Below, one piece after another: positions 3,249-23,361 of a stretch of DNA of 33,587 nucleotides; position 1 is the stretch's first letter; the number at the start of each line of letters is the position of its first letter. Source of the stretch: Tepidiphilus sp. J10. Its GTDB lineage: Bacteria > Pseudomonadota > Gammaproteobacteria > Burkholderiales > Thiobacillaceae. Both the position numbers and the translations under genes were made by a program. The stretch is from positions 1 through 33,587 of the forward strand of contig CAMDHJ010000020.1 of NCBI GenBank assembly GCA_945897865.1, given 5' to 3'. The notes beneath the pieces are model-generated. The model was not told the origin of the DNA, searched no databases, and saw only the letters and a list, made by a program, of their open reading frames with translations.

Positions 3249-3352
3249 CGAAAATATAAAAACTTGCTATCATGTCGCCCGTTAGCGCCATTGCTACCCG
3301 CAAAAACGCCAACAATCAACATGTTGATCAACGCTTTTAAGGAATTACACAA

Positions 3353-3592
3353 ATGAAATATTCAGTCCTGCTCGCCGCCCTGTTGGCTTTCTCCCTGACC
3401 GCTTGTGGCAAAAAAGAAGAAGCTCCGGCTCCTGAAGTTGCTGCTCCCGTTGTAGAAGCTCCGGCTCCTGCCGCTCCGGTTGAAGAAGTTGCTCCTGCTG
3501 CTGACGCTATGGCTCCTGCTGATGCCGCTGCTCCTGCTGCTGATGCCGCTGCTCCTGCTGACGCCGCTGCTCCTGCTGCTCCCGCCCACTAA
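3353..3592 (+). CDS. Small Ala/Pro-rich lipoprotein
   Basis: Predicted lipoprotein of 79 residues. The N terminus is a lipoprotein signal: Lys at position 2, a hydrophobic core, then LTAC, giving a lipidated Cys at residue 18 followed by GKKEE. The rest is low complexity, built from Ala, Pro, Glu/Asp and Val. Units of the type APADA/APAADA repeat in its second half, encoded by near-repeats of GCTGCTCCTGCTG-type DNA. No catalytic or binding motif is visible. Such sequences usually act as extended tethers in the periplasm, which is inference. The ATG at 3353 has an AAGGAA ribosome site (3341-3346). A strong intrinsic terminator follows 19 bases after the stop, so this is an independent end of transcription. 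Confidence 0.75.
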   Translation: MKYSVLLAALLAFSLTACGKKEEAPAPEVAAPVVEAPAPAAPVEEVAPAADAMAPADAAAPAADAAAPADAAAPAAPAH

Positions 3593-3611
3593 TCATTGGC
3601 AAGCAGCACAG

Positions 3612-3639
3612 AAAACCGGCCTTCGGGCCGGTTTTTTTT
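3612..3639 (+). terminator. Rho-independent terminator after the lipoprotein gene
   Basis: A perfect 10-bp stem (AAAACCGGCC at 3612-3621, GGCCGGTTTT at 3626-3635) closes a stable TTCG tetraloop and runs into eight consecutive T residues (3632-3639). Confidence 0.9.
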
Positions 3640-3756
3640 CGTCTACAACTTTTTCACCTTACGTCCATCTTTAGGTCCGTCTTCAAATCCGCCTCCCAAC
3701 TTTAGCCAAGCTGACAAAATTTCAACACAGCTGATTGCCTCACCATCAAGCTGAAA

Positions 3757-3800
3757 TCCAACAACATCCAAAAACAAACATAAGTCATTGTTTTGTTGGA
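3757..3800. repeat. Inverted repeat upstream of the -24/-12 promoter
   Basis: TCCAACAA at 3757-3764 and its exact reverse complement TTGTTGGA at 3793-3800 flank an AT-rich 28-base centre, just upstream of the sigma-54-type promoter at 3810. It could be an activator site for an enhancer-binding protein, but it lies closer to the promoter than most such sites. The arms are short, so chance is possible. Confidence 0.3.
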
Positions 3801-3809
3801 AGAATTATA

Positions 3810-3827
3810 TTGGCACGGTTTATGCTT
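3810..3827 (+). promoter_or_regulatory. Sigma-54 (-24/-12) promoter of the PEP-CTERM gene
   Basis: The sequence TTGGCACGGTTTATGCTT matches the sigma-54 consensus (YTGGCACG-N4-TTGCW) except for one base at the -12 box. The invariant GG (3812-3813) and GC (3824-3825) are separated by exactly 10 bases, the required spacing. Transcription would begin near 3837, leaving about 20 bases with the AAGGAG ribosome site (3845-3850) before the ATG at 3857. RpoN control of PEP-CTERM genes through the PrsK/PrsR two-component system is established for exosortase systems. No prsR homologue is visible in this window. Confidence 0.72.
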
Positions 3828-3856
3828 ACAGTCTTATACCATTCAAGGAGACTGTA

Positions 3857-4696
3857 ATGATCAAAACACTAATTCAACTGATGATCGTAGCCGGCATGAT
3901 GGCCTCTGCGGGCGCTCAAGCCATTGTCATAGATGGTGATTTATCTGATTGGGGCATACAGAAAGATATCGGCAAAGCCGGCTGGACTCCGACCGCAAAC
4001 AACGGAATCATCCCCAACAGCAATATCCAAACCAGCGTCGAAGACTGGGACCGGTCGACAAAGAACGGCTACCTTGACCCTGGCTATGGCGGCCAGGCTT
4101 ACGACGCTGAAGCGCTTTATGCCCTGATCGAAGGCAACACGCTGTTTATTGCATTAGCCACGGGGCACAACCCGGCAACCGCAAACTCACCGAATAACAA
4201 TAATTTTGGCGCCGGCGATTTCGCAATCGACTTCGGCAAAAACGGAAGCTACGAACTAGGCATCAATATCAAACCGTATTGGGACACCTTTGGCGTCGCT
4301 GGCGGCGTTTACAAGAATGTCACCTGGGAACTGGGTTTATGGAATGACAACGCAACTTCCGGTTACCTCAAGTCTGAACATCCGACATCGATGAGCAATG
4401 GAACGCAAATCGGCGCTGTCGATTCGCTCTTCATCAGCTCCGCCAAGACCGGTTATGGCGAATGGTCAACAGACAAGCATTATTTCTATGAGATGAGCAT
4501 CAACATTTCGCTATTGGAAGCTGCGGGCTGGGATGGCGACCCCTTCAACATCCACTGGACCCAGAACTGCGCCAACGACAGCATCATCGTTGACCCGCCT
4601 TCAGGCGTTCCCGAACCTGGCACGTTGGCGCTAATCCCCCTCGGCCTGCTTGGTCTTGTTGTCCTCCGCCGCCGTAACGCGACTTCAGCAGCCTAA
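3857..4696 (+). CDS. PEP-CTERM sorting-domain surface protein
   Basis: Exported protein of 279 residues destined for exosortase processing. The C terminus is a textbook PEP-CTERM signal: VPEPGTLALIPLGLLGLVVL followed by RRR. The N terminus is a Sec signal peptide ending near GAQA. The mature protein opens with VIDGDLSDWG, a motif typical of CBM9/DOMON-like beta-sandwich domains. The body is rich in Asn, Gly and aromatic residues, as expected of an extracellular protein. I start it at ATG 3857, which has AAGGAG seven bases upstream. An in-frame ORF extends back to 3788, but it runs across the promoter. PEP-CTERM proteins are linked to exopolysaccharide and floc formation in betaproteobacteria. 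The exosortase must lie elsewhere. Its last 12 bases overlap the end of the convergent aminotransferase gene. Confidence 0.9.
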   Translation: MIKTLIQLMIVAGMMASAGAQAIVIDGDLSDWGIQKDIGKAGWTPTANNGIIPNSNIQTSVEDWDRSTKNGYLDPGYGGQAYDAEALYALIEGNTLFIALATGHNPATANSPNNNNFGAGDFAIDFGKNGSYELGINIKPYWDTFGVAGGVYKNVTWELGLWNDNATSGYLKSEHPTSMSNGTQIGAVDSLFISSAKTGYGEWSTDKHYFYEMSINISLLEAAGWDGDPFNIHWTQNCANDSIIVDPPSGVPEPGTLALIPLGLLGLVVLRRRNATSAA

Positions 4697-9908: not shown

Positions 9909-11705
9909 ATGGATCTGAGCAATCTTTCTGTATTGAAAAACATGCGGGTGCTTTACGTCGAAGACGACAGCGCCACCCGTGAGGAACTCGGCGAGATCCT
10001 CGCCTACTGGGTCAAGACACTCGACATCGCAACCAATGGGCAAGCCGGTCTCGCTTTGTATAGCGAAAAACGGCACGACCTGGTGGTGACCGACATTCAG
10101 ATGCCGATCATGGGCGGTCTGGTCATGAGCGCGGAGATTCGTCGTATCGCGCCGCGACAACCCATCATCGTGCTGAGCGCATACAACGATGTGGAATTCC
10201 TGTTCCGCGCCATTGAACTCGGCATCAGTCAATACATAACCAAACCGGTCAATGTCGAAAAGCTGCTCGGAAAAATAGCCGAGATTGCCGAGGTTCTGCA
10301 GGCGAAACAGGAACAACAGCGCAACCGGCGGCTGCTTGAACAATATCGTCACCTGGTCGACGCCAGCGCCATTGTCAGCAAATTCGATCCGCACGGCCGC
10401 ATAACCTATGTCAATGACCGCTTTTGTGAATTGAGCGGATATAACCAGCAAGCGCTGATCGGCAGCGAAATTCGGCGCATGCGCCATCCTGACGAGCCGA
10501 AGGATATTGCCGGGAAAATCTGGCAATCGGTCCTTGATGGCAACAAATGGGCGGGCATCGTTAAGAACCAAAACCGATCTGGCGCCATGTATATAGTCGA
10601 CAGCAGCCTGGTGCCGATCTTCAACGAACGCAATCAGGTCGAAGAAGTCGTCTGTCTGGATGTCGACATCACCGACCTCTACCTGAATTACGAAAACATG
10701 CTCGAGTCGCTCAGCCGCAGTGAGCGATCCCTCTATGAGCAACGTCATTTGCTCGACGAATACAAACGCGTGCTGGAACTGGGCGCCAGCATCCTCGTCG
10801 TCGAACCAAGCGGGCGTATCCTGGGTGTCAACCTTCGATTGGCGAACATGCTCGGGTATGAGGTCAAGGACTTGATCGAGCGGTCGTTAAGCGATGTCGT
10901 GCCGGCCGACTATTCGACTTGCATCCAGCAAGCCACCCAGATCATCGACGGCCATTGCAGTCAAGTCATTCCGTTCATTCATCAAGACGGCGCGGAACGG
11001 ATATTCAGTGTCAACTTCATGTCCGTGCACGACCTGCATGGCCAGATCAACTCCATCATCCTGAGCTGCCAGGACGTCACCGAGCCGCTGCGTCTGACAC
11101 AAGAAATCGTCGAAACCCAGCGTGAGCTTCTGCTGGTTCTCGGCGAAGTGATGGAAAACCGCAGCCAGGAAACCGGCAAGCATGTTTACCGTGTCGCCGA
11201 AATTGCCCACTTGCTGGCCCTTGAATATGGCCTAAGCAAGGAACAGGCAGAAATCCTGAAGACCGCCGCGCCGATGCACGATATCGGCAAGGTCGGCATC
11301 GACGATGCGATTCTGCACAAGCCGGGCAAGCTGGATTTCGATGAGTTCGAGATCATGAAAACGCATGCCGAACGCGGCCATCACATCCTCACCCGCATCG
11401 ACCGCCCGCTGCTCAGCATGGCCGCGCGGATTGCGCATGAACACCATGAAAACTTCGATGGAAGCGGCTATCCGCAAGGCCTCAAGGGCGAAGAAATCTC
11501 GATCGAGGGCCGCATCATCGCGGTCGCCGACGTGCTCGACGCCCTCGGCCAAGCACGGGTTTACAAAGCTGCTTGGGAAGACGTCGCGATCCGTAATTAC
11601 TTCGTCACGCAACGTGGCTGCAAGTTCGATCCCGTACTGGTCGACCTGATGCTCAAGCATTGGGATGCCATCTCCGATATACGAAATAACTATCGCGATA
11701 TTTGA
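9909..11705 (+). CDS. REC-PAS-PAS-HD-GYP response regulator (c-di-GMP phosphodiesterase)
   Basis: Cytoplasmic response regulator of 598 residues. The receiver domain (about 10-130) has the acidic pair E18/D19/D20, phospho-acceptor D62 (VVTDIQMP) and the Lys of ITKPVN at 112. PAS 1 (about 145-258) has GRITYVNDRFCELSGY. PAS 2 (about 285-395) has GRILGVNLRLANMLGY. HD-GYP (about 405-590) carries the HD dyad at 457-458 (MHDIGKVGI), HHENFDGSGYP with GYP at 520-522, and DVLDAL..R.YK. All key catalytic residues look intact, so hydrolysis of cyclic di-GMP is expected. The open frame extends upstream to 9816, but ATG 9909 fits the domain start. It is the first gene of the run ending with the kinase at 21042, and only 16 bases separate it from the TolC-family gene. 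It is the natural candidate partner of that kinase. Confidence 0.93.
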   Translation: MDLSNLSVLKNMRVLYVEDDSATREELGEILAYWVKTLDIATNGQAGLALYSEKRHDLVVTDIQMPIMGGLVMSAEIRRIAPRQPIIVLSAYNDVEFLFRAIELGISQYITKPVNVEKLLGKIAEIAEVLQAKQEQQRNRRLLEQYRHLVDASAIVSKFDPHGRITYVNDRFCELSGYNQQALIGSEIRRMRHPDEPKDIAGKIWQSVLDGNKWAGIVKNQNRSGAMYIVDSSLVPIFNERNQVEEVVCLDVDITDLYLNYENMLESLSRSERSLYEQRHLLDEYKRVLELGASILVVEPSGRILGVNLRLANMLGYEVKDLIERSLSDVVPADYSTCIQQATQIIDGHCSQVIPFIHQDGAERIFSVNFMSVHDLHGQINSIILSCQDVTEPLRLTQEIVETQRELLLVLGEVMENRSQETGKHVYRVAEIAHLLALEYGLSKEQAEILKTAAPMHDIGKVGIDDAILHKPGKLDFDEFEIMKTHAERGHHILTRIDRPLLSMAARIAHEHHENFDGSGYPQGLKGEEISIEGRIIAVADVLDALGQARVYKAAWEDVAIRNYFVTQRGCKFDPVLVDLMLKHWDAISDIRNNYRDI

Positions 11706-11721
11706 TTTTTAAGGAATTCCC

Positions 11722-13137
11722 ATGCGCAAGACTCTCACCCACCTGTTCGCCCTGACCTGCCTTGCCGGCGCGACGCAACTCGCCAACGCCGAACAACTGG
11801 ACAACCTGACGCTGCAACATAGCCTGCGCATTGCGCTGGAAAACCACCGCTCGCTGCAGGTCTCGCAAGCCGCACTCGACATGGCAGAGGCGCAATACCA
11901 GCAGGCGATGGCGGCATTTCGGCCGAAACTGGGGCTGGAAGCTGGGTTTCAGCGGGCGGATGAGAATCGGACGTTTACCTTTGAGGGCATTGTGCAGACC
12001 CCGGCGATGGGCCTGCCGATCGGCCTCGGTGGTGCCATCGTGGCCATTCCCGGACAGCCCCTGCCGATCAATCTCGATGTCCAGCTGTTCGACCGCGATG
12101 TCACCCGCGCCGGCCTCAACCTGACTTATCCGCTCTACACCGGCGGCAAGAAGGAAGCGATCACCGGCATGGCGAAGAAAGGCGTCGAAATCGCGCGCGA
12201 GGAAAAACGCAAAACCGAACTGGAGGTGGTGCGCGACGTCAACAAGTACTACCACGGCGCGCAGTTCGCGCAACAGATGGAACAACTGGTCAGCGACACG
12301 CTGGAACGCTTCCAGGCATTGGAAGACCTGACCGACCGGCTGTACCAGAACGCTTCGCTGAAGGTGAAAAAGACCGATTACCTGCGCACCAAGACGACTA
12401 CGGCGATGACCCGCTCCATGTTGCAGGAAACCCGTTACGCCAGCGCGCTGACCCGCGAAGCGCTGGCGAATGCGATGGGCTTGCCGGTCAACAGCCGAAT
12501 CAGCCTGGCTCCAGAAGCAGAAATGCCGGGATTCGATGCGGCCTTTGAACCCCTGCTCGCCGACGCCATGAAGTTCAATCCAGACAAACAGCGCCTGGAA
12601 CTGGCGGTGCAGGCAGCCGAGCACAAAATCAACGAAGCGCGTAGCGGTCATTTTCCGGTGGTCGGGCTGGAAGCCAGTGCTTATCGCGCCTGGAACGACT
12701 ACAAGGGCGGTCTGATCAACGACGACAACCGCGACGGCTGGACGTTGGGAGTCGGCGTCAAATGGGATCTGTTTGACGGCGGCATGACCAAGGCCGGCGT
12801 CGATGCCGCCCGCGCCGGCAAGATCAAACTTGAAGCCCAGCGCGTATTGCTCGATAACGGCCTCGCGTTGCAGATCAAGAATGACTTCATGCGCATTGAA
12901 CGCTCCCGCGCCCAGGTCAGCGACAGCACCCAGGCGCAAGGCTATGCCGAGGAAAACCGCAAACTGAATGTGCGCGCCTATCAGGAAGAAATGGTCGAGA
13001 CCAAGGACGTGATCGAAGCCCAGCTGGTGGAAACCTTCGCCAGCGCCAACCTGCATCGCGTCCGCCACGACCTGCGCGCCGCCCTGGCCTATCTCGATTA
13101 CCGCCTCGGCAAGGCGCTGCAACCGGCCAAGCCGTAA
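11722..13137 (+). CDS. TolC-family outer-membrane efflux protein (orphan)
   Basis: Outer-membrane factor of 471 residues with a Sec signal peptide ending near ANA. It shows the two-fold TolC architecture: an N-terminal repeat starting SLRIALENHRSLQVSQAAL, and a second repeat around residues 275-460 with AAEHKINEARSGHFPVVGLEASAY and a late coiled coil. Each beta-barrel section is followed by YPLYTGG or WDLFDGG, typical OMF motifs. Between the first two strands there is a long hydrophobic, Pro/Gly-rich insert (about residues 86-118) that could form a large outer loop. OMFs normally partner with an inner-membrane pump and an adaptor, and neither is in this window. It has a good AAGGAA ribosome site, and its stop lies 7 bases before P1. 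Its role could be export, or sensing/gating linked to the binding proteins (inference). Confidence 0.9.
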   Translation: MRKTLTHLFALTCLAGATQLANAEQLDNLTLQHSLRIALENHRSLQVSQAALDMAEAQYQQAMAAFRPKLGLEAGFQRADENRTFTFEGIVQTPAMGLPIGLGGAIVAIPGQPLPINLDVQLFDRDVTRAGLNLTYPLYTGGKKEAITGMAKKGVEIAREEKRKTELEVVRDVNKYYHGAQFAQQMEQLVSDTLERFQALEDLTDRLYQNASLKVKKTDYLRTKTTTAMTRSMLQETRYASALTREALANAMGLPVNSRISLAPEAEMPGFDAAFEPLLADAMKFNPDKQRLELAVQAAEHKINEARSGHFPVVGLEASAYRAWNDYKGGLINDDNRDGWTLGVGVKWDLFDGGMTKAGVDAARAGKIKLEAQRVLLDNGLALQIKNDFMRIERSRAQVSDSTQAQGYAEENRKLNVRAYQEEMVETKDVIEAQLVETFASANLHRVRHDLRAALAYLDYRLGKALQPAKP

Positions 13138-13144
13138 GCACGGC

Positions 13145-14050
13145 ATGGCAAATTCGGCCATCCGGCTTGCCCTCGCGCTGGTGCTGTTGTGCTGCGGACT
13201 GGCGCGGGCTGAGTTACCGCCGGTCGCCATCGGATTCTATCTCCCGGTCGTCCGCGACCTGCCACGCAAGGATGTCGAGGTCTCGCTGCGCTTCTGGGTC
13301 GAGGAACTTGCGCGCAGCATCGGGGTTTCCTATCTGCCAGTGCAGATGTACGACGATCTGTCCAAGTTGAAGCGCGACTTGGTCAGCGGCAAGCTGAATT
13401 TCCTGGTCACCACCGCCATGGGCGCGGTACAACATTTCGCACCCGAAGAATTGGCAGATGGCTTTTCAGGCTACAAGACGGTTCCCGACCACCTGCTGCT
13501 GGTGGTACGTCGCGAAGCCGCAATCCGCACACCCGGTGACCTTGCCGGCAAGCGGGTTGCGCTGATGGAGGGCGACGAACTTGCCGATCTCTATCTGGAA
13601 ACCCTGCTGCTGAAAGCCTGGGGCAAACCGGACTGGAAGCGCCTCGGCCCAATTACCCGCGAGCAGCGCTCCGGCAAACTGGCGCACCGCCTTTTCTTTG
13701 GCCAGGCTGACGCGGCGCTGCTCTATCGCAACGGCTATGAGGCCGCCCTGGCGCTGAACCCACAACTCGGGCAACGCCTGCAGGTACTGGACGCCTATTC
13801 CTTCAAGATGCGTTCGCCGCATATCGGCCTATTTTCGGCACAGGTGCGTCCGGAACACCGCGAGGAAATCACTCAGGCCGTGCTGCGGCTGAACGAAACG
13901 GCGCGCGGTCGGCAAGTGTTGCAGATATATCTGGCGGACAGCATGGTGCGGACCCCGCTGCGCGATCTGGCGCCGTTTCGCGAGCTGATCGAAACCCACC
14001 GCAGTTTGCTGGCGCGCGGCCAGGGAAAAGCAGAAAGCACACGCAAATGA
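13145..14050 (+). CDS. PhnD-like periplasmic binding protein P1 (lacks Cys pair)
   Basis: Periplasmic solute-binding-type protein of 301 residues with signal peptide cleavage after ARA (residue 22). The fold matches the PhnD/phosphonate-binding family (type 2 periplasmic binding proteins): VAIGFYLPVVRD opens lobe 1, QMYDDLSKLKRDLVSGKLNF forms the next unit, and LAGKRVALMEGDELADLYLET starts lobe 2. NPQLGQR and RGRQVLQIY are the array-wide motifs. It is the only array member without the CX7C pair: Leu155 and Asp163 stand where the others have Cys. It also departs from the FK-(T/I/V)D consensus after RGRQ. Being first and most divergent, it may bind a different ligand or play a structural role. 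The ribosome site is weak, so expression probably depends on TolC-gene translation 7 bases upstream. Confidence 0.85.
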   Translation: MANSAIRLALALVLLCCGLARAELPPVAIGFYLPVVRDLPRKDVEVSLRFWVEELARSIGVSYLPVQMYDDLSKLKRDLVSGKLNFLVTTAMGAVQHFAPEELADGFSGYKTVPDHLLLVVRREAAIRTPGDLAGKRVALMEGDELADLYLETLLLKAWGKPDWKRLGPITREQRSGKLAHRLFFGQADAALLYRNGYEAALALNPQLGQRLQVLDAYSFKMRSPHIGLFSAQVRPEHREEITQAVLRLNETARGRQVLQIYLADSMVRTPLRDLAPFRELIETHRSLLARGQGKAESTRK

Positions 14051-14946
14051 GGCTCGGATGCCTTCTGCCGCTGCTGCTTTCACTGCTGTTAGTCAGCGCG
14101 AGCAGCAGCGCTGCCCCCCCCACCCACGAATCGCTGCGCATTGGCGTCGACCTCAGTGCACTCCGCGACGCCAGCCGCGCCGATGTGGAAGTGTCGCTCA
14201 AGGTGTGGGCAGACGAATTGATGCGTACCCTGGAAGTGCCGGCTGAAGTGCAGTTCTTTTCGGCCATGCCGGAGGTTAGACGCGCCCTGGATGCCGGCCG
14301 CATCAACTTCGTCATTGGCGACGGCCTCGACCTGCTGCGCCATTTCGCAACGAACGATCTCAGCGATGGCTTTGGCGGCCTTGCGCCAAATGAAGACCAG
14401 ATGTTCCTGCTGGTCCGCAAGGCGGCCGGCATCCGGCACGCACGCGATCTGGCCGGCCAACGGGTGGCGTTGCTCAGCAACAATGCGATATCCGACCTCT
14501 GGCTGGAAACCTATTGCCTGCGCGCCTTCCAGAAGACCTGTGCGAAGGCCGGCCTGCAGGTCAGCACCGAACAGCGCAGCCGGCAACTGGTACTCAAGCT
14601 GTTTTTCGACAAGGCAGACGCCGCCCTGGTGCGTGGCTACGCCTATGAACTGGCGAAGGAACTCAATCCGCAGATCAGCCAACGCATCGACATTCTCGAA
14701 CGGATCGACATTTATCCTGGCTCGCTTGGCCTGTTCGGGCGTCTGGTCAGCCCGGCCTTCCGTGACTATGTCATCGCCAAGGTGCCTCGCCTGCACGACC
14801 ATCCGCGCGGCCGCCAGATTTTGGAAGTGATGCAGACCTCGCGTGTCGGCCGGGTTCCGCATAGCCTGCTCGACCCAATCAGGGATCTGGTCAGGGAACA
14901 TGAAATGCTGAGCCGGCGGTCTGTCGCAAGCGGAGAGCGTAAATGA
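14047..14946 (+). CDS. PhnD-like periplasmic binding protein P2
   Basis: Exported binding protein of 299 residues, with a signal peptide rich in Leu and Ser ending near SSSAA. Lobe 1 begins LRIGVDLSALRDASRADVEVSL; here the usual Phe after IG is Val. Lobe 2 begins LAGQRVALLSNNAISDLWLETYC. The Cys pair is C157/C165 (CLRAFQKTC), predicted to form a disulfide in the periplasm. NPQISQR and PRGRQILEVM are present. The LSNN segment shares the LSND start of type B proteins, while LETYCLRAF is closer to type A, so P2 looks intermediate. It starts inside the P1 stop (ATGA) with no strong ribosome site of its own. Confidence 0.85.
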   Translation: MRLGCLLPLLLSLLLVSASSSAAPPTHESLRIGVDLSALRDASRADVEVSLKVWADELMRTLEVPAEVQFFSAMPEVRRALDAGRINFVIGDGLDLLRHFATNDLSDGFGGLAPNEDQMFLLVRKAAGIRHARDLAGQRVALLSNNAISDLWLETYCLRAFQKTCAKAGLQVSTEQRSRQLVLKLFFDKADAALVRGYAYELAKELNPQISQRIDILERIDIYPGSLGLFGRLVSPAFRDYVIAKVPRLHDHPRGRQILEVMQTSRVGRVPHSLLDPIRDLVREHEMLSRRSVASGERK

Positions 14947-15851
14947 CGGGTTACGGGCTGCCGCACCGCGTGATTCTGCTGCTGTCGATGCTGTTCGGCC
15001 TGCTCGCGGTCCCCGCATTGCAGGCTGCTGACGAGGTGTTGCGGATCGGCTTCAACGTCAAGATCGCGCGCGATTTGAACCGGGCCGATGTGCAATCAGC
15101 ACTCAGCCTGTGGGCGGATGAATTGAGCAGCAAGTTCAACGTACCCGCCGAATCCCTGTTTTATGACGACATGGCCGTCCTGCGACAGGACTTCGATCGC
15201 GGCAAAATCAATTTTGTCATTGCCGCCGGCATGGATTTCGCGCGCTACTTCAAACAAAACGAACTGGCGGATGGCTTTCGTGGCACAGTCCTGACCGACC
15301 ACACCCTGTTATTGCTGACGCGGCGCGATGCCGGCATCGAAGATATGAACCAGCTACGGGGCAAACGTATCGCCGTGCTGAAGGGCGATGAACTGTCCGA
15401 GGTGTATCTGGAAACCCTGTGTTTACGCCGCTTCCAACGACCCTGTACGCAGGTATTCAGCAGCATCGAAACGGTGTCCAACAGCAACCAACTGATCCTG
15501 CGTCTGGTGTTTGGCAAAGCCGATGTGGTGCTGAGCAAGCGGAATGGTTTCGAGACCGCACAAGAACTGAATCCGCAGGTCGGCCGGGTGGCGATGGAGC
15601 TGACCCGGTTCCCGATCAAGAGCAGTTACTACGGACTCTTCAACAGCAAGGTCAACCCTGCAATGCGCAAGCACAGCCTGCAGCGAATGCCCAACATGCA
15701 CAAGGATGTGCGCGGTCGGCAAGTGCTGGAGATATTCAAAGTCGATCGGCTCGTATTGGTCGGAACCGATGAATTGCGCCCCTTCTATGAGCTGCTGTCG
15801 GATTACGAAGCCTTGCTGCCCACCCCGGCGAGCAAGCGGAGCGCACGATGA
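14943..15851 (+). CDS. PhnD-like periplasmic binding protein P3 (type A)
   Basis: Exported binding protein of 302 residues, signal peptide to about ALQA (residue 28). The type A signature is clear: KIARDLNRADVQSALSLWADEL in lobe 1, LKGDELSEVYLETLCLRR in lobe 2, Cys pair C160/C168 (CLRRFQRPC), and VRGRQVLEIFKVDRL. FYDD (73-76), followed by a charged helix and GKINFVIAAGMDFARYF, corresponds to the ligand-cleft region of PhnD relatives. The NPQV motif is kept, but the following residues (GRVAMEL) diverge. It is coupled to P2 by ATGA and preceded by a good GGAGAG ribosome site. P3 is closest to P4 and P6 by eye. Ligand unknown. Confidence 0.86.
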   Translation: MTGYGLPHRVILLLSMLFGLLAVPALQAADEVLRIGFNVKIARDLNRADVQSALSLWADELSSKFNVPAESLFYDDMAVLRQDFDRGKINFVIAAGMDFARYFKQNELADGFRGTVLTDHTLLLLTRRDAGIEDMNQLRGKRIAVLKGDELSEVYLETLCLRRFQRPCTQVFSSIETVSNSNQLILRLVFGKADVVLSKRNGFETAQELNPQVGRVAMELTRFPIKSSYYGLFNSKVNPAMRKHSLQRMPNMHKDVRGRQVLEIFKVDRLVLVGTDELRPFYELLSDYEALLPTPASKRSAR

Positions 15852-16753
15852 AGACATGGCTTCTTTGGCGACTGCGCCTGTTGCTGAGCACTTTGCTGTT
15901 GAGCGCCGCTTTGCAGCCGGCCTGGTCCGCGCCAACGGCTGAAACCGCACGGCTGGGCTTGTACATGAAGATCGCGCGCGATCTGAATCGCTCCGACGTG
16001 CGCACCGCGCTTGAAGTCTGGACGGAGGAATTGACGCGCAAATTCCAGGTTCCCTCCGAAGTCCGCTTCTATTCCGACATCGACGCGCTACGCCATGATT
16101 TCGACACCGGCCAGGTCAACCTGGTGATTGCCGACGCAATGACCTTCGTACGTCATTTCAAACCGGAGGAATTGGCCTTGGGCTTCACCGCCAAGCTTCC
16201 CAACAGCGCCTCTCTGCTTCTGCTCGGCCGCCCAGGTGGCGGCGGTGTCTCACAACTTGCAGGTAAAACCATCGCCAGGCTAGACGATGACGAGGTCTCC
16301 TCAACCTATCTGGACACCTTATGCCTGCGGCGTAGTGGCAAGGAATGTGCGGCGCTCCGGGTCACCTTTGTACCCGTGCCGAACAATCATCAAGCAGTGA
16401 CTCGACTGTTGTTCAAGCAGGTCGATTTTGCCCTGGTCAATCAACATGGCTACGAAACCGCCGTCGAGCTCAATCCCCAACTCAGGAAGGCGGGTGAGTT
16501 GGTGGAAAAACTCAGTTTTGAAACCCAGTTTTTCGGTTTTTTCAGCAGCCGGATTACCCCCGAGTTCCAACGCTTCGCGCTGCGCACCATTGACACCATG
16601 CATCTGGAACCGCGTGGCAGACAGATGCTGGATGTATTCAAAACAGAACGCGTGACCCTAGCCGAACCGATCGTGTTGAAGCCGTTTTATCAACTGGAGC
16701 GGGAATACCGGGAACTGAAAGCCGAGGCCAGGCGCAAGGAACGCAAGCCATGA
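15848..16753 (+). CDS. PhnD-like periplasmic binding protein P4 (type A)
   Basis: Exported binding protein of 301 residues with a long hydrophobic signal peptide ending near AWSA. Lobe 1 has LGLYMKIARDLNRSDVRTAL, sharing both protein and DNA identity with P3. Lobe 2 (LAGKTIARLDDDEVSSTYLDTLCLRR) is type A but with acidic substitutions, and the Cys pair is C159/C167 (CLRRSGKEC). A glycine run (GRPGGGG) before the hinge is not seen in the other members. NPQLRK and PRGRQMLDVFKTERV close the conserved motifs. The FETQFFGFFSSRI segment is aromatic-rich compared with its paralogues. Coupled to P3 by ATGA, with GGAG upstream. Confidence 0.86.
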   Translation: MKTWLLWRLRLLLSTLLLSAALQPAWSAPTAETARLGLYMKIARDLNRSDVRTALEVWTEELTRKFQVPSEVRFYSDIDALRHDFDTGQVNLVIADAMTFVRHFKPEELALGFTAKLPNSASLLLLGRPGGGGVSQLAGKTIARLDDDEVSSTYLDTLCLRRSGKECAALRVTFVPVPNNHQAVTRLLFKQVDFALVNQHGYETAVELNPQLRKAGELVEKLSFETQFFGFFSSRITPEFQRFALRTIDTMHLEPRGRQMLDVFKTERVTLAEPIVLKPFYQLEREYRELKAEARRKERKP

Positions 16754-17643
16754 AGCACTGGCGCCAGCTCCTGTTGCTGCTGTTGCCGACTTGTCTGCAG
16801 GCTTCGCCCACCCCGGCCGCACCCGTGCAAGAGCCGTTGAAGCTGGGTTTTTATCTGCCCGCCATTCGTGACGCCAATCTGGTCGACATGAAAGTCAGCC
16901 TCGGCATCTGGGTGACAGAAATTGGCAAACCCCTTGGCCTGACCGTCACCACCACGACCTATGACGATATCTCCGCCATGCGTCAGGCCCTGGACCGCGC
17001 CGAGATGAACTTCTTCAGCGGCCCGGGCATGGAACTGGCCGAAGTTTTCGCACCGGGTGAAATTCGATCCGGCTATGCCCGTCGCATCATAGGTACCGAC
17101 GAAGGTATCGCCTTGCTGGTATCCAACACCTCCGGCATCAGGAGCTTTGCCGACTTGCGCAACAAACGCCTGTCCCGCCTGAGCAACGATCGCCTGTCCG
17201 ACATCTTCCTGGAAGTCCAGTGCATCAAAGCGGCGGGCATGGCGTGTCATGATTTCCTGCAAATGAAGGAGGAAAAGCGCGACATCCAATCGGTCTACAA
17301 CGTCTTTTTTGGTCGCGCCGATGCCGCACTGGTCAGCCTGGCCACCTTGCGCACCGCGAATGAACTGAATCCCCAAGTCGGGCAACGCTTGCATGTGCTG
17401 CTCGATTGGAAAGCGAAAGCGTTGATGTTCGGCATCATGACCCGGCATACCAAGGACGCCTATCGCGACCTGGTGCTGAACTCGGTGACGGAAGTGATGA
17501 AAACCCCGCGCGGCCGGCAAATCCTGGAACTGTTCAAGACGGACTATCTTGAGCCGGTCGATGCCGAAGCCTTGCGGCCATACTGGGCACTGCTGCGCGA
17601 ATACCATGAACTCCGCCGCGTCGGCATGACGAGAAAGAAATGA
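16750..17643 (+). CDS. PhnD-like periplasmic binding protein P5 (type B)
   Basis: Exported binding protein of 297 residues, signal peptide ending around CLQA. It is the first of two type B members. Lobe 1 reads LGFYLPAIRDANLVDMKVSLG. Lobe 2 has LSRLSNDRLSDIFLEVQC with Cys pair C158/C166 (CIKAAGMAC). Then LMFGIMTRHTKD replaces the GLF region of type A. ANELNPQVGQRLHVLLDWKA is nearly shared with P7 (ANELNPQIRQRLHILLEWKT), and both end with a D-PYW-L-RE tail after LFKTD. The Cys at residue 15 in the leader is not in a lipobox. Coupled to P4 by ATGA, with AAGGAA upstream. Confidence 0.86.
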   Translation: MKHWRQLLLLLLPTCLQASPTPAAPVQEPLKLGFYLPAIRDANLVDMKVSLGIWVTEIGKPLGLTVTTTTYDDISAMRQALDRAEMNFFSGPGMELAEVFAPGEIRSGYARRIIGTDEGIALLVSNTSGIRSFADLRNKRLSRLSNDRLSDIFLEVQCIKAAGMACHDFLQMKEEKRDIQSVYNVFFGRADAALVSLATLRTANELNPQVGQRLHVLLDWKAKALMFGIMTRHTKDAYRDLVLNSVTEVMKTPRGRQILELFKTDYLEPVDAEALRPYWALLREYHELRRVGMTRKK

Positions 17644-18575
17644 GTCGCCGATTTTCCATCCTCGCTCCGCTTCGCATCGCCGCCAGCCTGATTGTGACAC
17701 TGGCTTTGTTGCTGCCAGCCACACAAGCCACCTCGGCCACCTCAGCAGCCGCTGAAGAAAGCATTCGATTGGGTTTTTATAGCGGCGCGCGCCGGGAATG
17801 GAGTCGCGCCGAGGTGCGCGGCACCTTCGACCTGTGGGCGCAGGAATTGGCGAGAAAATTCCAGATTCCGGTCAGGATCATCCACTACGACGACACGCTC
17901 GAGATGCGTCAGGACTTCCTCGCCGGCAGGATCGACGGCATCAATGCGGATGCCATCACCCTTGTTCGCCAGTACAAGCTGGACGAGCTGGCGGAAGGCT
18001 ATGCAACGATCATGAAGGGCGGCTGGAACCTGATGTTGTTCACCAGCAAGGCAAGCGGCGTGCAAAACTTGGCAGATCTCGCCGGTAAGCGCATTGTTTT
18101 ACTGGAAGAAGACCAGGCGGGAGAGATGTACCTGGAGACGCTTTGCCTGCGCCACCACCAGCGCCCGTGCCGTGAAGTTTTCTCCGACATCCAGCGCGTC
18201 AGCACCAGCAACCAGGCCTTGATGCGGGTCTTTTTCGGCAAGGCCGATCTGGCGCAGGTCTATGGTTACGGCCACGACGTGGCGGTCGAAATGAACCCGC
18301 AACTGGGGCAGTCCATCCGCAAACTGGCAGAATTTCCGCTTCGCAGCCTGTTCCTCGCCTTCTATAGCACCCGGGTGGACCCCACCCTGCGCCAGCGCAC
18401 TATTCGCATCATGCCCACCCTGCATACCTATCCGCGCGGTCGCCAATTGCTCGACATCTTCAAGATCGATCGTCTGGATGTCGCCTACCCCGCCGAACTG
18501 CAGCCGGTGATTGAACTGGAGCGGGAATATCAGCGATTGCTCAGCCAGTTCGAGCGCAAGGAAAGGCGCAGATGA
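17640..18575 (+). CDS. PhnD-like periplasmic binding protein P6 (type A)
   Basis: The longest array member at 311 residues, because of a longer signal peptide and Ala/Ser/Thr-rich leader (cleavage near TQA or SAA). Type A signature: LARKFQIPVRIIHYDDTLEMRQDF, lobe 2 LAGKRIVLLEEDQAGEMYLETLCLR, Cys pair C169/C177 (CLRHHQRPC), NPQLGQS and PRGRQLLDIFKIDRL. The RD of the common LGFY...RD start is replaced by a Arg-rich segment (SGARREWSRAEVRG), which could change the ligand cleft. GRIDGINADAIT contrasts with GKINFV in P3. Coupled to P5 by ATGA, with a weak ribosome site (GAGAAAG). Confidence 0.86.
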   Translation: MSRRFSILAPLRIAASLIVTLALLLPATQATSATSAAAEESIRLGFYSGARREWSRAEVRGTFDLWAQELARKFQIPVRIIHYDDTLEMRQDFLAGRIDGINADAITLVRQYKLDELAEGYATIMKGGWNLMLFTSKASGVQNLADLAGKRIVLLEEDQAGEMYLETLCLRHHQRPCREVFSDIQRVSTSNQALMRVFFGKADLAQVYGYGHDVAVEMNPQLGQSIRKLAEFPLRSLFLAFYSTRVDPTLRQRTIRIMPTLHTYPRGRQLLDIFKIDRLDVAYPAELQPVIELEREYQRLLSQFERKERRR

Positions 18576-19447
18576 AGTCGGCAATCGCTCTCCTGGTCTG
18601 TCTGCTCTCGCTCTGTGCGCCGGCCAGCCGTGCTGCCGATATCCTGAACATGGGCTTCTACCTGCCTGGCATTCGCGACGCCAATCTGGCCGATGTCCAT
18701 ATCACCCTGCAGCTTTGGGCGGACGAAGTCGGCAAGGCGCATGGCATCAACGCCACCGCCTACACCTACAGCGATATGGCCGCGTTGTATCGCGACAGCA
18801 TGGTCGGCAAGATCAATCTGATCGTGGCCCCAGGCATGGAGATCGCCGAAACCTTCGCACCGGAAGAACTGGCGCCAGGCTTTGTCGGCAAGCATCACAG
18901 CAGCAGCGAAGGCCTGGTGCTGATCGTGCGGGCCAGCGACGGCATCCGGCAGTTCGGCGATCTGCGCGGCAAGAAAGTACTGCATCTGTCCAACGACCGC
19001 CTGTCCTCGGTGTTTCTGGAAAACCAATGCCGACAGCAGGCCAGCGCGGCATGCGCCGACCTGTTCCAGGTCGGCGAGGAGAAGCGCAACAGCCAGACCA
19101 TCCACAAGGTCTTTTTCGGCCAGGCCGATGCCGCACTGGTCAGCATCAGCGCCCTGCACGCCGCGAATGAATTGAATCCGCAGATTCGGCAGCGCCTGCA
19201 CATCCTGCTGGAATGGAAAACCTCGTCTCTTGGATACGGGCTGATGTCGGCCAGGACCGACATGGCGCTGCGTGACAGGGTAGTGAAATCGGCCATGCAG
19301 GCGACCAATACCGTGCGCGGCAAACAGCTTCTTGAACTGTTCAAGACCGACTTCATGGACCGGGTCGACGTCCAGGAACTGAAACCCTACTGGCAATTGC
19401 ATCGAGAGCGTCAGGAATGGGCCAACCACAAAGCGAGGAAAAAATGA
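18572..19447 (+). CDS. PhnD-like periplasmic binding protein P7 (type B)
   Basis: Exported binding protein of 291 residues, signal peptide ending at SRA. Type B: MGFYLPGIRDANLADVHITLQ in lobe 1, VLHLSNDRLSSVFLENQC in lobe 2, Cys pair C153/C161 (CRQQASAAC), NPQIRQRLHILLEWK and VRGKQLLELFKTD. RGKQ replaces the RGRQ of all other members. The C-terminal ELKPYWQLHRERQEW matches the tail of P5. The lobe 2 entry is HHSSSEGLVLIVRAS. It is coupled to P6 by ATGA and a strong AAGGAAAGG site, and its own stop overlaps the kinase start, so binding protein and kinase translation are tied together. Confidence 0.86.
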   Translation: MKSAIALLVCLLSLCAPASRAADILNMGFYLPGIRDANLADVHITLQLWADEVGKAHGINATAYTYSDMAALYRDSMVGKINLIVAPGMEIAETFAPEELAPGFVGKHHSSSEGLVLIVRASDGIRQFGDLRGKKVLHLSNDRLSSVFLENQCRQQASAACADLFQVGEEKRNSQTIHKVFFGQADAALVSISALHAANELNPQIRQRLHILLEWKTSSLGYGLMSARTDMALRDRVVKSAMQATNTVRGKQLLELFKTDFMDRVDVQELKPYWQLHRERQEWANHKARKK

Positions 19448-21042
19448 CACCCCCTTGGCTATCCGTCAGGCTGCTGCCGGCCAATCGCATGTTCTTCCGG
19501 GTGTTCGGTGTGTTCGGCAGCCTGTTGCTGGCGATGACTATCCTATACGGCCTGCTGATCATCCCGTTGCAGCGTGACTCGCTACTCAAGGTGCTTTATT
19601 CGCAGGCCACCACGGTGTCGCGCTCAATTATTCAGGCCAGTTCGGATGCCATGCTGACCGACGATTTCGGCTTTGTCGTCGAACACAACCTGCAGGTTCT
19701 GCAAAACAACAAGAGCATTCAGTCGGTGCTGATCGTCCCACGCCGCGGTTCAGCGCTGAGCATTGCAACGAGCGGCTGGGAAATGCTGCAGACCGCTGCG
19801 GCACCGATCAAGCCGGCCGATTACGACGTTGAATCGTATGGCATCGTCACTTCGCCGGAAGGCAACGCGCGCTACCGTTACATCACCCCAATCCGCTTCA
19901 GCGGCGTCAGTTGGGGAGTGATGCAAATTGACTTCGATACCAGTGAATACGAAGCGAACATCGACGAGATGTATCGTCAAATCGCCTACATCTCACTGTT
20001 TACCTTGCTGGCGATTCTGCCCATCGGCTATTTTTTCGCACTCTGGCTGACCCGGCCGATCGCCACCATCAGCCAGGCGGCATCACGAGTCGCCAGTGGC
20101 GAGCTGGATACCCACGTCAAGATCGACCGCAACGACGAAATCGGCGACCTGTCGCACAGCTTCAATCAGATGGTGCAAGCGCTGGCGGAAAACCGGCGGC
20201 AACTGGAAAACGTCAATCTTGACCTGGAAATCAAGGTGACCGAACGAACCCAGGAACTGGATGAACTGAACCGCACCCTGGACCAGCGCGTGCGCGACGA
20301 AGTCTCGAAACGGAAAGAACAGGAACAACTGCTGATCCATCAGTCGCGTCTGGCGGCAATGGGCGAGATGATCGGCGCCATCGCACACCAGTGGCGACAA
20401 CCGCTGAATGCGCTGAGTCTGGTGACTCAGAACATGCAAATGCAATACCTCACCGGCCAACAAACGGAGGAATCAATGCGCGCCTTGCAGGACAAAGCGC
20501 AGCAGTTGATCCAGCGCATGTCGCAGACCATCGACGAGTTCAGAAACTTCTTCAAACCCAGCAAACATTCGGAAACCTTCAATCTCGCTCAGGCCATTCA
20601 GGCCGCTGCAGATATTCTTGAAGGCATGTTCAAGAATCACAATATTGAACTCGGCATGGATTGCCCGTCCGATATCGAGCTGTATGGCATACCTGGCGAG
20701 TTCTCCCAGGTTATTCTGAATTTGCTCGGCAATGCGCGGGATGCAGTGTTGACCGCGAATCAGCCGCAGCCAAAAATCTTTATCCGTGCGAGTTTGGGTC
20801 AGAATCAGGTTCAGATTGACGTAGAAGACAACGGCACCGGCTTTGACCCGAACACCATGCACAAGATTTTCGAGCCATATTTCACCACCAAGGAAGAGGG
20901 TAAAGGGACCGGCATCGGCTTGTACATGTCGAAGACCATCGTGGAAAACAACATGCACGGCAACCTGGAAGCGATCAGCATGGCAAATGGCGCTTGCATG
21001 CGGATTACCTTGCCCATCAAAACCAGCCCGGTCACTGGCTGA
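19444..21042 (+). CDS. Membrane sensor histidine kinase (Cache-like, HAMP, HisKA)
   Basis: Inner-membrane kinase of 532 residues. A transmembrane helix at about residues 20-42 and another at about 180-202 bracket a roughly 135-residue periplasmic domain. That domain's ITPIRFSGVSWGVMQIDFD ending resembles single-Cache/PDC sensors. HAMP follows (about 203-255), then a coiled coil with heptads to about 295. The dimerisation/phosphoacceptor helix carries His315 in IAHQWRQPLNAL. The ATPase domain has the N box (NLLGNARDAV), G1 (DNGTGFD), an F box (FEPYFTTK) and G2 (GKGTGIGLYM). All look intact. The ATG at 19444 overlaps the P7 stop. Likely role: read out one or more of P1-P7 and phosphorylate the HD-GYP regulator heading the run. 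That pairing is inferred from synteny. Confidence 0.94.
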   Translation: MTPPWLSVRLLPANRMFFRVFGVFGSLLLAMTILYGLLIIPLQRDSLLKVLYSQATTVSRSIIQASSDAMLTDDFGFVVEHNLQVLQNNKSIQSVLIVPRRGSALSIATSGWEMLQTAAAPIKPADYDVESYGIVTSPEGNARYRYITPIRFSGVSWGVMQIDFDTSEYEANIDEMYRQIAYISLFTLLAILPIGYFFALWLTRPIATISQAASRVASGELDTHVKIDRNDEIGDLSHSFNQMVQALAENRRQLENVNLDLEIKVTERTQELDELNRTLDQRVRDEVSKRKEQEQLLIHQSRLAAMGEMIGAIAHQWRQPLNALSLVTQNMQMQYLTGQQTEESMRALQDKAQQLIQRMSQTIDEFRNFFKPSKHSETFNLAQAIQAAADILEGMFKNHNIELGMDCPSDIELYGIPGEFSQVILNLLGNARDAVLTANQPQPKIFIRASLGQNQVQIDVEDNGTGFDPNTMHKIFEPYFTTKEEGKGTGIGLYMSKTIVENNMHGNLEAISMANGACMRITLPIKTSPVTG

Positions 21043-21087: not shown

Positions 21088-23214
21088 TCAAGGCACTGAC
21101 TGCAGTGCGATGACCAAATTTTTCTGCGTCGTTTCAAGCTGCGAAAACAAGCTGAAGGCTTCGGCAAGCGGTGCATTGCCGCGTAATAACGTATCAAGCT
21201 CGCTGGCTAGCCGATACACCTCTCTGGCCCCCACCGCGCCGGAAGATCCAATCAGGCTATGCACAATTTGACGGGCCTTTTCCCGTTCGCCCTGTTCCAG
21301 CAAACCACGCACAATGGAAATATCTTCCCTGTGTGTCCAGACAAAAATCTTCAGCACTTCACGGTACTTTGGCAGCTTGCCAAGAATATTTTTCAACCCC
21401 AATGCAACATCCAGACCGGGTATCGCCGCCAGCATTGCAACCACATCAGGTTTCGCAACCGACGCGTCAGGTTTAAGCGTGGTTTCAGGTTTTGGCGTGG
21501 TTTCAGGTAGCCACTTGACCAATGCGGCGTAAAACGTGTCCGGTTCGACCGGTTTGGCAATGTGGCCATTCATCCCGCTGGCCGTGCATTTTTGTAAATC
21601 GTCGACAAACACATTCGCGGTCAGCGCCAGAATCGGCAGCTGCTGGTAACCAGGCAAGCTGCGGATATGTTGCGTCGCCAGCAAACCATCCATGACCGGC
21701 ATCTGCACATCCATCAGGATTGCGTCGAAGATCTGCTCGCGACACAGATTCAGCGCAATCAAACCATTGTCCGCCAGCACTGCCTCGAAGCCGACGTCCT
21801 GCAACAGGAGGGCCGCAACTTCCTGGTTGATCAGATTATCTTCCACTACCAGGATGCGGCATGGCTGCCGCCGCCCGCGCAGCAAGTCAATCGCCGAAGG
21901 ACCATTGGCATGCGTGGCGCTAGCGTTGGCAACCTGAGCGTCGGCAACCTGCGCGTTGAGACCGAAAGGAATGTCGCACCAGAACCGGCTACCCTCTCCG
22001 GTATGGCTTTCCATGCCGATCTCACCGCCCATCATCTCGGCCAGATGTTTGCTGATCGTCAGACCGAGGCCGGTTCCACCGTATTTTCGGGTGGTGGAAA
22101 CGTCAGCCTGCTCGAAAGCCTCGAACAGTTTGGCTTGTTTATCGGATTCGATGCCGATGCCGGTGTCCTCCACCTGGAAGCGCAAGCGGATCACTTCGCC
22201 GGCGGTTGCACCCGCGAGGGTTGTGCCACCCAGGGTCGAATCCTTGGCCTGCAAACGCCTGACGCCGAGCACTATGCTGCCCTGTTCGGTGAACTTGGCC
22301 GCATTGCTGGCGAAATTGAGCAGGATCTGGCTTAAACGCTGGGCATCGCCACGCAGGTTGGTGGGGATGCCGGCTTCGATATCCCGACGTATTTCCACAC
22401 CTTTGCCGCGAACCCTGTCAGCGGTCAGATCGAGCACATTGCGCAAGACATCATCGAGACGGAAATCGGTCACATCCAGCTGCATCTTGCCGGCTTCAAT
22501 CTTCGAGATATCCAGCACGTCATTGATGATGCCCATCAAATGATGCGCAGCGGATTCCATCTTGCCCAACCAGTCGAGTTGTTTTTCGGACAACGGAGAC
22601 CCGCGCATCACATGCGACAAACCCAGAATGGCGTTCATCGGCGTACGAATTTCATGGCTCATGTTGGCCAGAAAGGTGCTCTTTGCCTTGCTCGCTGCCT
22701 CCAGTTGGGCGGTGCGTTCAGCAACCTTCTGTTCCAGTTGCTGACGATGCTGTTCCAACTCATGCTGGGTACGTTCAAGCTGCGTCAGATTCCATCCCGC
22801 CTGCATGACGAATTGGATGCGCTGCATCAGCAAACTGAGATTGAGCGGTTTTTGGAGGAAGTCCGAGGCGCCCGCCGCGAATGAACGATCGATCGAGTCC
22901 TGATCATTCACCGCGGTCACCATGATGATCGGCAACCCAATGCCATGCGCCTGGCGCAAAGCGATACAAGTCTGAATGCCATCCATCACCGGCATCGTGA
23001 TGTCCAACAAAACCAGGTCAGGCATTTGTTGTTGGCAGAAACTCAGCGCATCCGGACCACTCTCCGCCATTTCGGCATGGTGGCCATACATGACAAGCAG
23101 CGACTTCAACAGCTCTCGCGTCGATTCATCATCATCCACCACCAGAATACGGAGTGGTTGCGACCAGGGATTCTTCTGTCCATCCTGGCTGGTTATGCTG
23201 GCAGCATCAGTCAT
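21088..23214 (-). CDS. Hybrid kinase REC-HisKA-HATPase-REC-Hpt
   Basis: Soluble multi-step phosphorelay protein of 708 residues. REC1 (about 21-140) has acceptor D71 (LVLLDITMP). A coiled coil (about 143-178) leads to HisKA with H187 ([11 protein letters not shown]). HATPase (about 290-420) has NAAKFTE, DTGIG and GGTGLGL. REC2 (about 452-570) has D502 (AILMDVQMP). The C-terminal Hpt domain has H652 ([14 protein letters not shown]). There are no transmembrane helices, so input must come through REC1 or cytosolic cues. Two low-complexity linkers with short repeats ([24 protein letters not shown]) flank REC2. I start it at ATG 23214; a GTG at 23274 is possible. It converges with the sensor kinase gene across 45 bases lacking a terminator hairpin. 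Cross-talk with the sensing operon is plausible but unproven. Confidence 0.93.
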
Positions 23215-23361
23215 GTCAAAAAAATCGGCTAAGTTGGACGCTGTTGATCTGAATTTATTGGATTCCACAAACACAAACGGCGGAATGAAACTAACGATAC
23301 TCGGGCCAGCTGGCCGCTGTCAGCTTATCTTTGCGGTATCTGCGGGCATTCCCGAAAATAA

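Follow-up and report, generated by a model that had tools for sequence, protein, structure and literature searches.

We analysed a stretch of 33,587 nucleotides from Tepidiphilus sp. J10 (assembly GCA_945897865.1, contig CAMDHJ010000020.1, positions 1 to 33,587 of the forward strand; hereafter the window), in which a tight run of ten genes on the plus strand, at positions 9909-21042, encodes a response regulator, a TolC-family outer-membrane channel, seven PhnD-like periplasmic binding proteins (S1-S7) and a membrane histidine kinase. The run opens with the regulator (9909..11705, 598 amino acids (aa)), which combines a receiver (REC) domain, two PAS domains and an HD-GYP domain, and continues with TolC (11722..13137, 471 aa), S1 (13145..14050), S2 (14047..14946), S3 (14943..15851), S4 (15848..16753), S5 (16750..17643), S6 (17640..18575), S7 (18572..19447) and the kinase (19444..21042, 532 aa). 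All ten genes, proposed in a first-pass annotation, were recovered in the same positions and on the same strand, and each assignment was backed by Pfam; the gaps of 16 bases between the regulator and TolC and of 7 bases between TolC and S1 were likewise correct, as was the absence of any permease, ATPase, pump or adaptor inside the run. The same annotation had counted eight ATGA overlaps or abutments. Alignment with relatives makes a kinase start at 19444 more likely than one at 19417, and the overlaps therefore number seven (S1/S2 to S7/kinase).

At the domain level, the regulator matched Response_reg, PAS and HD_5, and carries HDIGKVGI and HHENFDGSGYP, which follow the motifs HDxGK and HHExxDGxGYP that we take to be the HD-GYP signature; it is a probable cyclic di-GMP (c-di-GMP) phosphodiesterase. 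Pfam found no DNA-binding domain in it, in which it differs from the DNA-binding regulators of AioX-type systems. TolC matched OEP (PF02321) in two stretches, i.e., as two repeats, and each of S1-S7 matched PF12974 (Phosphonate-bd; gathering score 27) with 40.8-59.5 bits, their assignment being further based on identity and a tree. The kinase has the layout of a Cache-type sensor kinase: a Cache-like periplasmic domain between two transmembrane helices, then HAMP, HisKA and HATPase_c. Its periplasmic part was modelled as a Cache-like domain with moderate quality (predicted local distance difference test score (pLDDT) 81.6, predicted template modelling score 0.59), and its best structural matches include WalK and vpHK1S; from the size of the model and its one sheet we infer a single Cache domain.

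The term "PhnD-like" held at the level of the fold family, PF12974 being found in all seven proteins, and failed at the level of PhnD itself: no NCBIfam model reached its cut-off for any of S1-S7 (the best TIGR01098 score was 29.1 bits against a cut-off of 112.05), and S1 also passed the Pfam cut-off for NMT1, so the term denotes a fold family only. In a profile search of solved structures ArrX came first (E 4e-11), followed by AncQR (0.003), PtxB (0.0045) and a phosphonate-binding protein (0.0069). A Foldseek search with the S7 model (pLDDT 92.9) also placed ArrX first by E-value, then XAC2383 (structures 5ub3 and 5ub7; ranks 5, 12 and 18), PtxB, AioX and PhnD at close E-values, with HtxB and BstB (7t1m) reaching slightly higher template modelling scores (TM-scores); the accessible part of PMC10942540 describes BstB as a sterol binder. 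Thus S7 has the fold of the AioX/ArrX/ArxX sensors, with ArrX nearest by profile and with small structural margins over PtxB, AioX and PhnD.

The TolC protein belongs to a distinct subfamily with near-invariant motifs. Its two best-conserved 11-residue stretches, SLKVKKTDYLR (residues 212-222; 12355..12387) and RAYQEEMVETK (residues 418-428; 12973..13005), were the same in an alignment of 15 rows and again in one of 35 rows, where [KR]VKKTD was present in 35/35 and RAY[QR][EDQ]E[ML]V in all 34 rows that are complete there. From the structures of OprM and TolC we take both regions to be the periplasmic tips, at which adaptors dock. Tip 1 aligns with YDVGVASALD of OprM and is two residues longer. 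As a control, four other OEP proteins of the window's genome were compared (those in the fetched pieces, found with the TolC profile at E<=1e-3, of 25 domain matches in the genome): none of the four has the first motif, and at that place each is shorter by two to four residues; three possess the second region and all three lack the second motif, and the fourth lacks the tip 2 region. Because the two best-conserved stretches are the predicted tips, the usual adaptor dock, they suggest that the TolC tip has a special, conserved and dedicated partner. Like the TolC/OprM efflux proteins this TolC is a member of the OEP family; unlike them it has distinct tip motifs and comes firmly linked with binding proteins and, in nearly all cases, with a kinase.

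The first-pass annotation had advised a search for the same gene order in other genomes. A TolC search of 61 genomes (the window's own and 60 relatives) gave matches in seven, one of them distant, and a contig scan yielded 16 loci, in metagenome-assembled genomes labelled Thiobacillus, Parasulfuritortus, Propionivibrio, Rhodoferax, Tepidiphilus, Nitrosomonadales, Methylomicrobium, Methylicorpusculum, Methylomonas and Geobacteraceae and in several uncultured ones. By four-protein profiles, the order HD-GYP regulator, TolC, n binding proteins, histidine kinase recurs in the beta- and gammaproteobacterial loci (both classes in the NCBI sense) with the exception of locus L010, whose regulator is shortened, and the core is also present in Geobacterales, which makes three distant bacterial groups in all. 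A chance arrangement is ruled out by this repetition of the gene order. Further TolC searches matched 13/151 genomes in the family of the Methylomicrobium locus (the methanotroph family) and 11/141 in Geobacterales, the order of the Geobacteraceae locus, and in a sample of the phylum 1/398, the window's own (with the best 3-4 candidates per genome scored, so that copies may be missed). No plasmid match for TolC was found at 1e-60, leaving a plasmid-borne cassette unsupported.

Since most loci were located via TolC, TolC is present at most of them by construction. Searches seeded with the other components nevertheless reached TolC-bearing genomes only: a kinase-seeded search of the window's own family found 7/117 genomes, all carrying this TolC; a binding-protein search at order level found 2/300, both TolC-bearing (best seven candidates scored per genome); and a binding-protein profile at E<=1e-30 on the 141 Geobacterales genomes returned the same 11 as the TolC search and no others. 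At class level a kinase search found 1/369 (best 3-4 candidates per genome scored, so that copies may be missed). Furthermore, all family binding proteins at E<=1e-20 lay inside the operon in 15 distinct beta- and gammaproteobacterial and Geobacteraceae operon genomes (16 handles, one genome being doubled; the window's own genome is additional to these), and in the window's genome, where 14 of the 21 PF12974 matches fall outside the operon, a profile of S1-S7 at E<=1e-25 returned S1-S7 only. Among the frames of that genome, PhnD-like domains were also seen in 911-1185 aa frames on contigs C111, C43 and C41, possibly PhnD-like sensor fusions.

Group counts were made on the 35 genomes with a TolC row: 11 betaproteobacterial, 13 from the methanotroph family and 11 from Geobacterales. 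A twelfth betaproteobacterial genome (G018), with its operon split over two contigs, was left out of the counts of binding proteins, kinases and HD-GYP regulators. A family binding protein follows TolC in 33/33 genomes with downstream DNA (the contigs of L063 and L064 end within TolC), and 28/30 have, after the array, a kinase with the family sensor domain (contig ends remove L052, L060, L063, L064 and L065). The distance matrices of TolC, kinase and HD-GYP regulator agree (Mantel r 0.93, 0.83 and 0.84 over 13 loci, with no species-tree control), an agreement that shows co-inheritance only. When the flanking frames were clustered for an extra conserved partner, the widest clusters (six and five loci) included GGDEF and kinase-type genes; the remaining ones joined two or three loci, mostly of close relatives, and led nowhere. 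Thus TolC, at least one PhnD-like binding protein and a kinase with a predicted Cache-like sensor form a conserved unit, which is patchy and rare among the genomes searched.

An HD-GYP regulator precedes TolC in 21/23 beta- and gammaproteobacterial loci: REC-HD-GYP lies directly 5' of TolC in 10/11 betaproteobacterial loci and in 11/12 methanotroph loci with upstream DNA (L062, which has no upstream DNA, and L054 were omitted from the HD-GYP counts). The two exceptions are L010, which has REC-PAS only, and L056 of genome G865, where the regulator gene (2406-3946) is split by two frames that read as transposase-like, no kinase follows the array and the operon looks degenerate. A GGDEF gene immediately precedes the HD-GYP gene in at least 10/23 of these loci, a minimum composed of L012, L015 and L022 by Pfam (three proteins sent) and seven loci by a local profile on L046-L065. 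In Geobacterales the kinase has a receiver of its own in 8/9 loci, the ninth being cut by a contig end, and other receiver proteins may come after the kinase (in L053, a REC-GGDEF protein). The core therefore comprises TolC, the binding proteins and the kinase sensor, and the predicted output is replaceable, mostly c-di-GMP-related in beta- and gammaproteobacteria.

Conservation within the kinase was compared by domain, with region limits set by eye and with the kinase of L013 cut by a contig end. Among 13 relatives with both parts, the periplasmic domain was more identical to that of the window than the ATPase domain was in 11, including all nine betaproteobacterial ones. Sensor domains usually vary more than any other part of a kinase; their conservation here suggests that the periplasmic domain has a conserved protein partner.

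The number of binding proteins ranges from one to seven across loci, and the window represents the maximum. Array sizes were 7, 6, 4, 4 (plus a remnant), 3, 3, 3, 1, 1, 1 and 1 in the betaproteobacteria; 2, 2, 3, 2, 2, 4, 2 and 3 in methanotroph loci with a kinase; and 2, 1, 2, 5, 2, 4, 3 and 2 in Geobacterales loci with a kinase, L054 having about four with broken pieces. So the seven receptors of the first-pass annotation are indeed seven PF12974 proteins in the window, and as a feature of the system seven is one end of a range: multiplicity is optional and TolC is constant. A tree of 47 binding proteins resolved seven orthologous groups, S1-S7 (read by eye), common to several families. By these groups the compositions are 1-2-3-4-5-6-7 (window), 1-3-4-5-6-7 (G003, split over two contigs with part of the array on each), 1-2-5-(remnant)-7 (L012), 1-4-5-6 (L003), 1-6-7 (L010), 1-5-6 (L009 and L013) and 7 only (L004 and L005), and G018 has 3 (cut)-4-5-6-7 on one contig; the single binding protein of L014 and L015 falls beside the S1 group. 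All betaproteobacterial arrays are thus ascending, order-preserving subsets of S1-S7. Ascending order in six arrays has a probability of about 1e-8 under random order; the arrays are related, and for this reason the conserved order is most simply explained by their common descent from an old array. Exchange also occurs: the S6 of G003 is 49% identical to that of the window, against 57% for L003 and 85% for G018. Two array versions were observed in G003 (L001 8501-8665 and L002 6470-7366), one with S3 and one with a C-terminal remnant of S3 only, possibly from two strains in one assembly.

S2-S7 are only 30-37% identical to S1 and hence are old paralogues. The ratios of nonsynonymous to synonymous substitution rates (dN/dS) were 0.14-0.33 for the binding proteins (rough for S2 and S6, whose dS was above 1.3), 0.139 for the kinase, 0.192 for the HD-GYP regulator and 0.063 for TolC, the lowest of the operon genes compared. 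These values indicate that S1-S7 are old, distinct and under purifying selection. Among five groups compared, 9/291 positions differ between groups and are kept within them; they include loop residues 33, 113 and 114, the latter two lying, as judged by eye on the alignment with ArrX, beside ArrX Tyr138. In that alignment none of S1-S7 has a Tyr at the position of ArrX Tyr138, and one Ser position is kept in some of them. At the position of one ArrX Asp (placed by eye), which we take to be the counterpart of AioX Asp210, S1-S7 have Y, R, K, N, S, Y and S. The oxyanion pocket of AioX, according to the accessible part of PMC5908839, consists of Tyr88, Cys106, Tyr131, Ser161, Ser163, His192 and Asp210. 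As weak evidence, the variation at these positions fits different ligands and speaks against a plain oxyanion pocket.

We read the locus, with a probability of about 0.6, as a multi-receptor sensory operon of the AioX-AioS kind with a constant TolC, which would steer c-di-GMP in the beta- and gammaproteobacterial lineages. The seven secreted binding proteins would each have a ligand or an affinity of their own and, ligand-loaded (or empty), would dock on the single kinase, whose periplasmic domain they would share, a step modelled on AioX-AioS, where AioX is thought to act so; the kinase would phosphorylate the REC domain of the HD-GYP protein, and the phosphorylated protein would change the breakdown of c-di-GMP. 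TolC would be the circuit's passage across the outer membrane, which the sensed compounds probably use or are exported by, via a dedicated tip partner. The analysis establishes gene content, order and conservation, together with predicted folds; ligand binding by S1-S7, kinase docking, phosphotransfer and the change in c-di-GMP are the steps that we infer. TolC is the constant component of the operon and the least certain part of the mechanism.

Several points weigh against this reading. The Foldseek E-values and TM-scores of ArrX, PtxB, AioX, HtxB and BstB are close, which makes their ranking weak. Within the kinase, conservation of the phosphoacceptor (DHp) domain exceeds that of the periplasmic domain in 11/14 relatives, as does that of the ATPase domain in L019 and L020. 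No family kinase was found beside the array in L056 and L058 (in L058 1-7168, within 7 kb after three binding proteins). The c-di-GMP output proposed by the first-pass annotation, borne out by the regulator and GGDEF counts in beta- and gammaproteobacteria, is not universal, since HD-GYP precedes TolC in 0/10 Geobacterales loci with upstream DNA and is missing from L010 too. The co-inheritance figures are uncorrected for organism phylogeny, and TolC was itself the query by which most loci were located; its role is explained by no precedent that we found. A motif scan detected no sigma-70-like promoter ahead of the operon, the one site in the region lying within the kinase gene against 4.1 expected. 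Finally, G992 and G1053 have some of their family binding proteins on contigs other than that of TolC. These strays (G1053 contigs C195, C231 and C180; G992 contig C224) represent broken arrays or separate copies; in G1053 the TolC contig breaks off within the array, and there they may in part be a broken array.

Other explanations of the same genes were weighed. The TolC could serve an efflux or type I secretion pump encoded elsewhere, with the binding proteins collecting compounds for export or reporting to the kinase, which then tunes the state of the cell. TolC proteins can serve unlinked pumps and the strong constraint on this one fits such a role; on the other hand, no adaptor or pump was linked to TolC among the genes read at the loci (part of them scanned; unlinked partners were not searched for), the tip motifs are non-canonical with a lengthened tip 1, and the regulator has no DNA-binding domain, so we regard efflux control as rather unlikely. 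A variant of the sensory scheme, in which TolC is itself part of the receptor, is unlikely in our judgement: the binding proteins or the periplasmic domain of the kinase would dock on the TolC tip in the adaptor's place, so that channel, exchangeable receptor set and inner-membrane kinase would make one envelope-spanning sensor and passage through the channel, or its open state, would be read out as c-di-GMP.

Uptake is improbable. On that account S1-S7 would be the substrate-binding parts of import systems with permease and ATPase elsewhere, and the kinase a mere neighbour. PF12974 proteins do usually serve ATP-binding cassette (ABC) importers, and PhnE-like matches (E<=0.001), most of them weak, were obtained in 14/16 operon genomes. 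Only four of these (G774, G775, G777 and G778) passed the cut-off, however, and PhnE, the one permease family tested, stayed below it in 12/16, including the window's own genome (86% complete); moreover, in the arrays read, neither a permease nor an ATPase lies between TolC and kinase, and the nearest solved relative is the sensor ArrX. Uptake through an unlinked phosphonate permease was rejected on these PhnE counts, and the co-inherited permease elsewhere which the first-pass annotation had named as decisive counter-evidence did not appear, at least for PhnE. Still less probable is a lineage-specific amplification, with the seven copies reflecting recent duplication or dosage and no separate functions. 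The copy number does range between 1 and 7, and L001 (8501-8665) and L012 (8753-9058) contain decaying remnants, but the paralogues are far diverged from S1, and orthologous groups common to several families, the conserved order and purifying selection (dN/dS 0.14-0.33) led us to reject recent dosage amplification.

Around the operon, a Pfam scan of twelve flanking window proteins detected no permease, adaptor or export pump, and one FeoB iron transporter. A hybrid kinase with two receivers and Hpt (21088-23274, minus strand) converges on the operon, which ends 45 bases away, and a relative of it is found beyond the operon in G003 (L002 3-839; 58% over 283 residues). The window also contains a protein with a PEP-CTERM motif (3788-4693, plus strand). 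Genes that read as TonB-receptor-like and YfiR-like follow the Geobacteraceae version of the operon in L023 (11256-13872).

Among related systems, those with accessory receptors use one binding protein per kinase, as far as our knowledge and the literature searched extend, and we know of no TolC in the AioX, ArrX and ArxX systems. NspS-MbaA, TorT-TorS and LuxP-LuxQ couple a membrane sensor to a separate, modulating binding protein; they belong to other binding-protein families and have one receptor each. In Xanthomonas citri, XAC2383, a periplasmic protein of the PhnD fold, reportedly acts directly on the membrane diguanylate cyclase XAC2382 as its one receptor; we know of no kinase or TolC in this pair. 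The locus resembles AioX-AioS-AioR, ArrX and ArxX in having a PhnD-like periplasmic protein beside a kinase and a regulator, whereas those systems, in the accessible part of PMC5908839 (where LuxP and TorT are named also), have one binding protein, transcriptional regulators and an arsenic-oxyanion pocket, against up to seven binding proteins, an HD-GYP output and a constant TolC here. It also resembles the TtrS/ThsS kinases, in which a PhnD-like domain serves kinase sensing; in these, by the accessible part of PMC5408782, the domain is built into the kinase, there is no separate array and TolC goes unmentioned. Of the periplasmic binding protein clan, a 2022 review of c-di-GMP sensing (PMC8846402, accessible part) names only SBP_bac_3 as studied in c-di-GMP networks.

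The first-pass annotation knew of no described system of this composition, and no description of an HD-GYP regulator, TolC, binding-protein array and kinase together turned up in the literature searched, most subscription papers lying outside it. The operon is real, conserved and, as far as searched, undescribed; it would be a form of two-component signalling aided by binding proteins, in which the receptor array is ordered and TolC is constant. If TolC takes part in sensing, this would be a role for TolC absent from the literature searched. Up to seven ordered, distinct receptors are kept before one conserved sensor domain, and the natural series from n = 1 to n = 7 allows one to ask how a single kinase integrates many periplasmic inputs.

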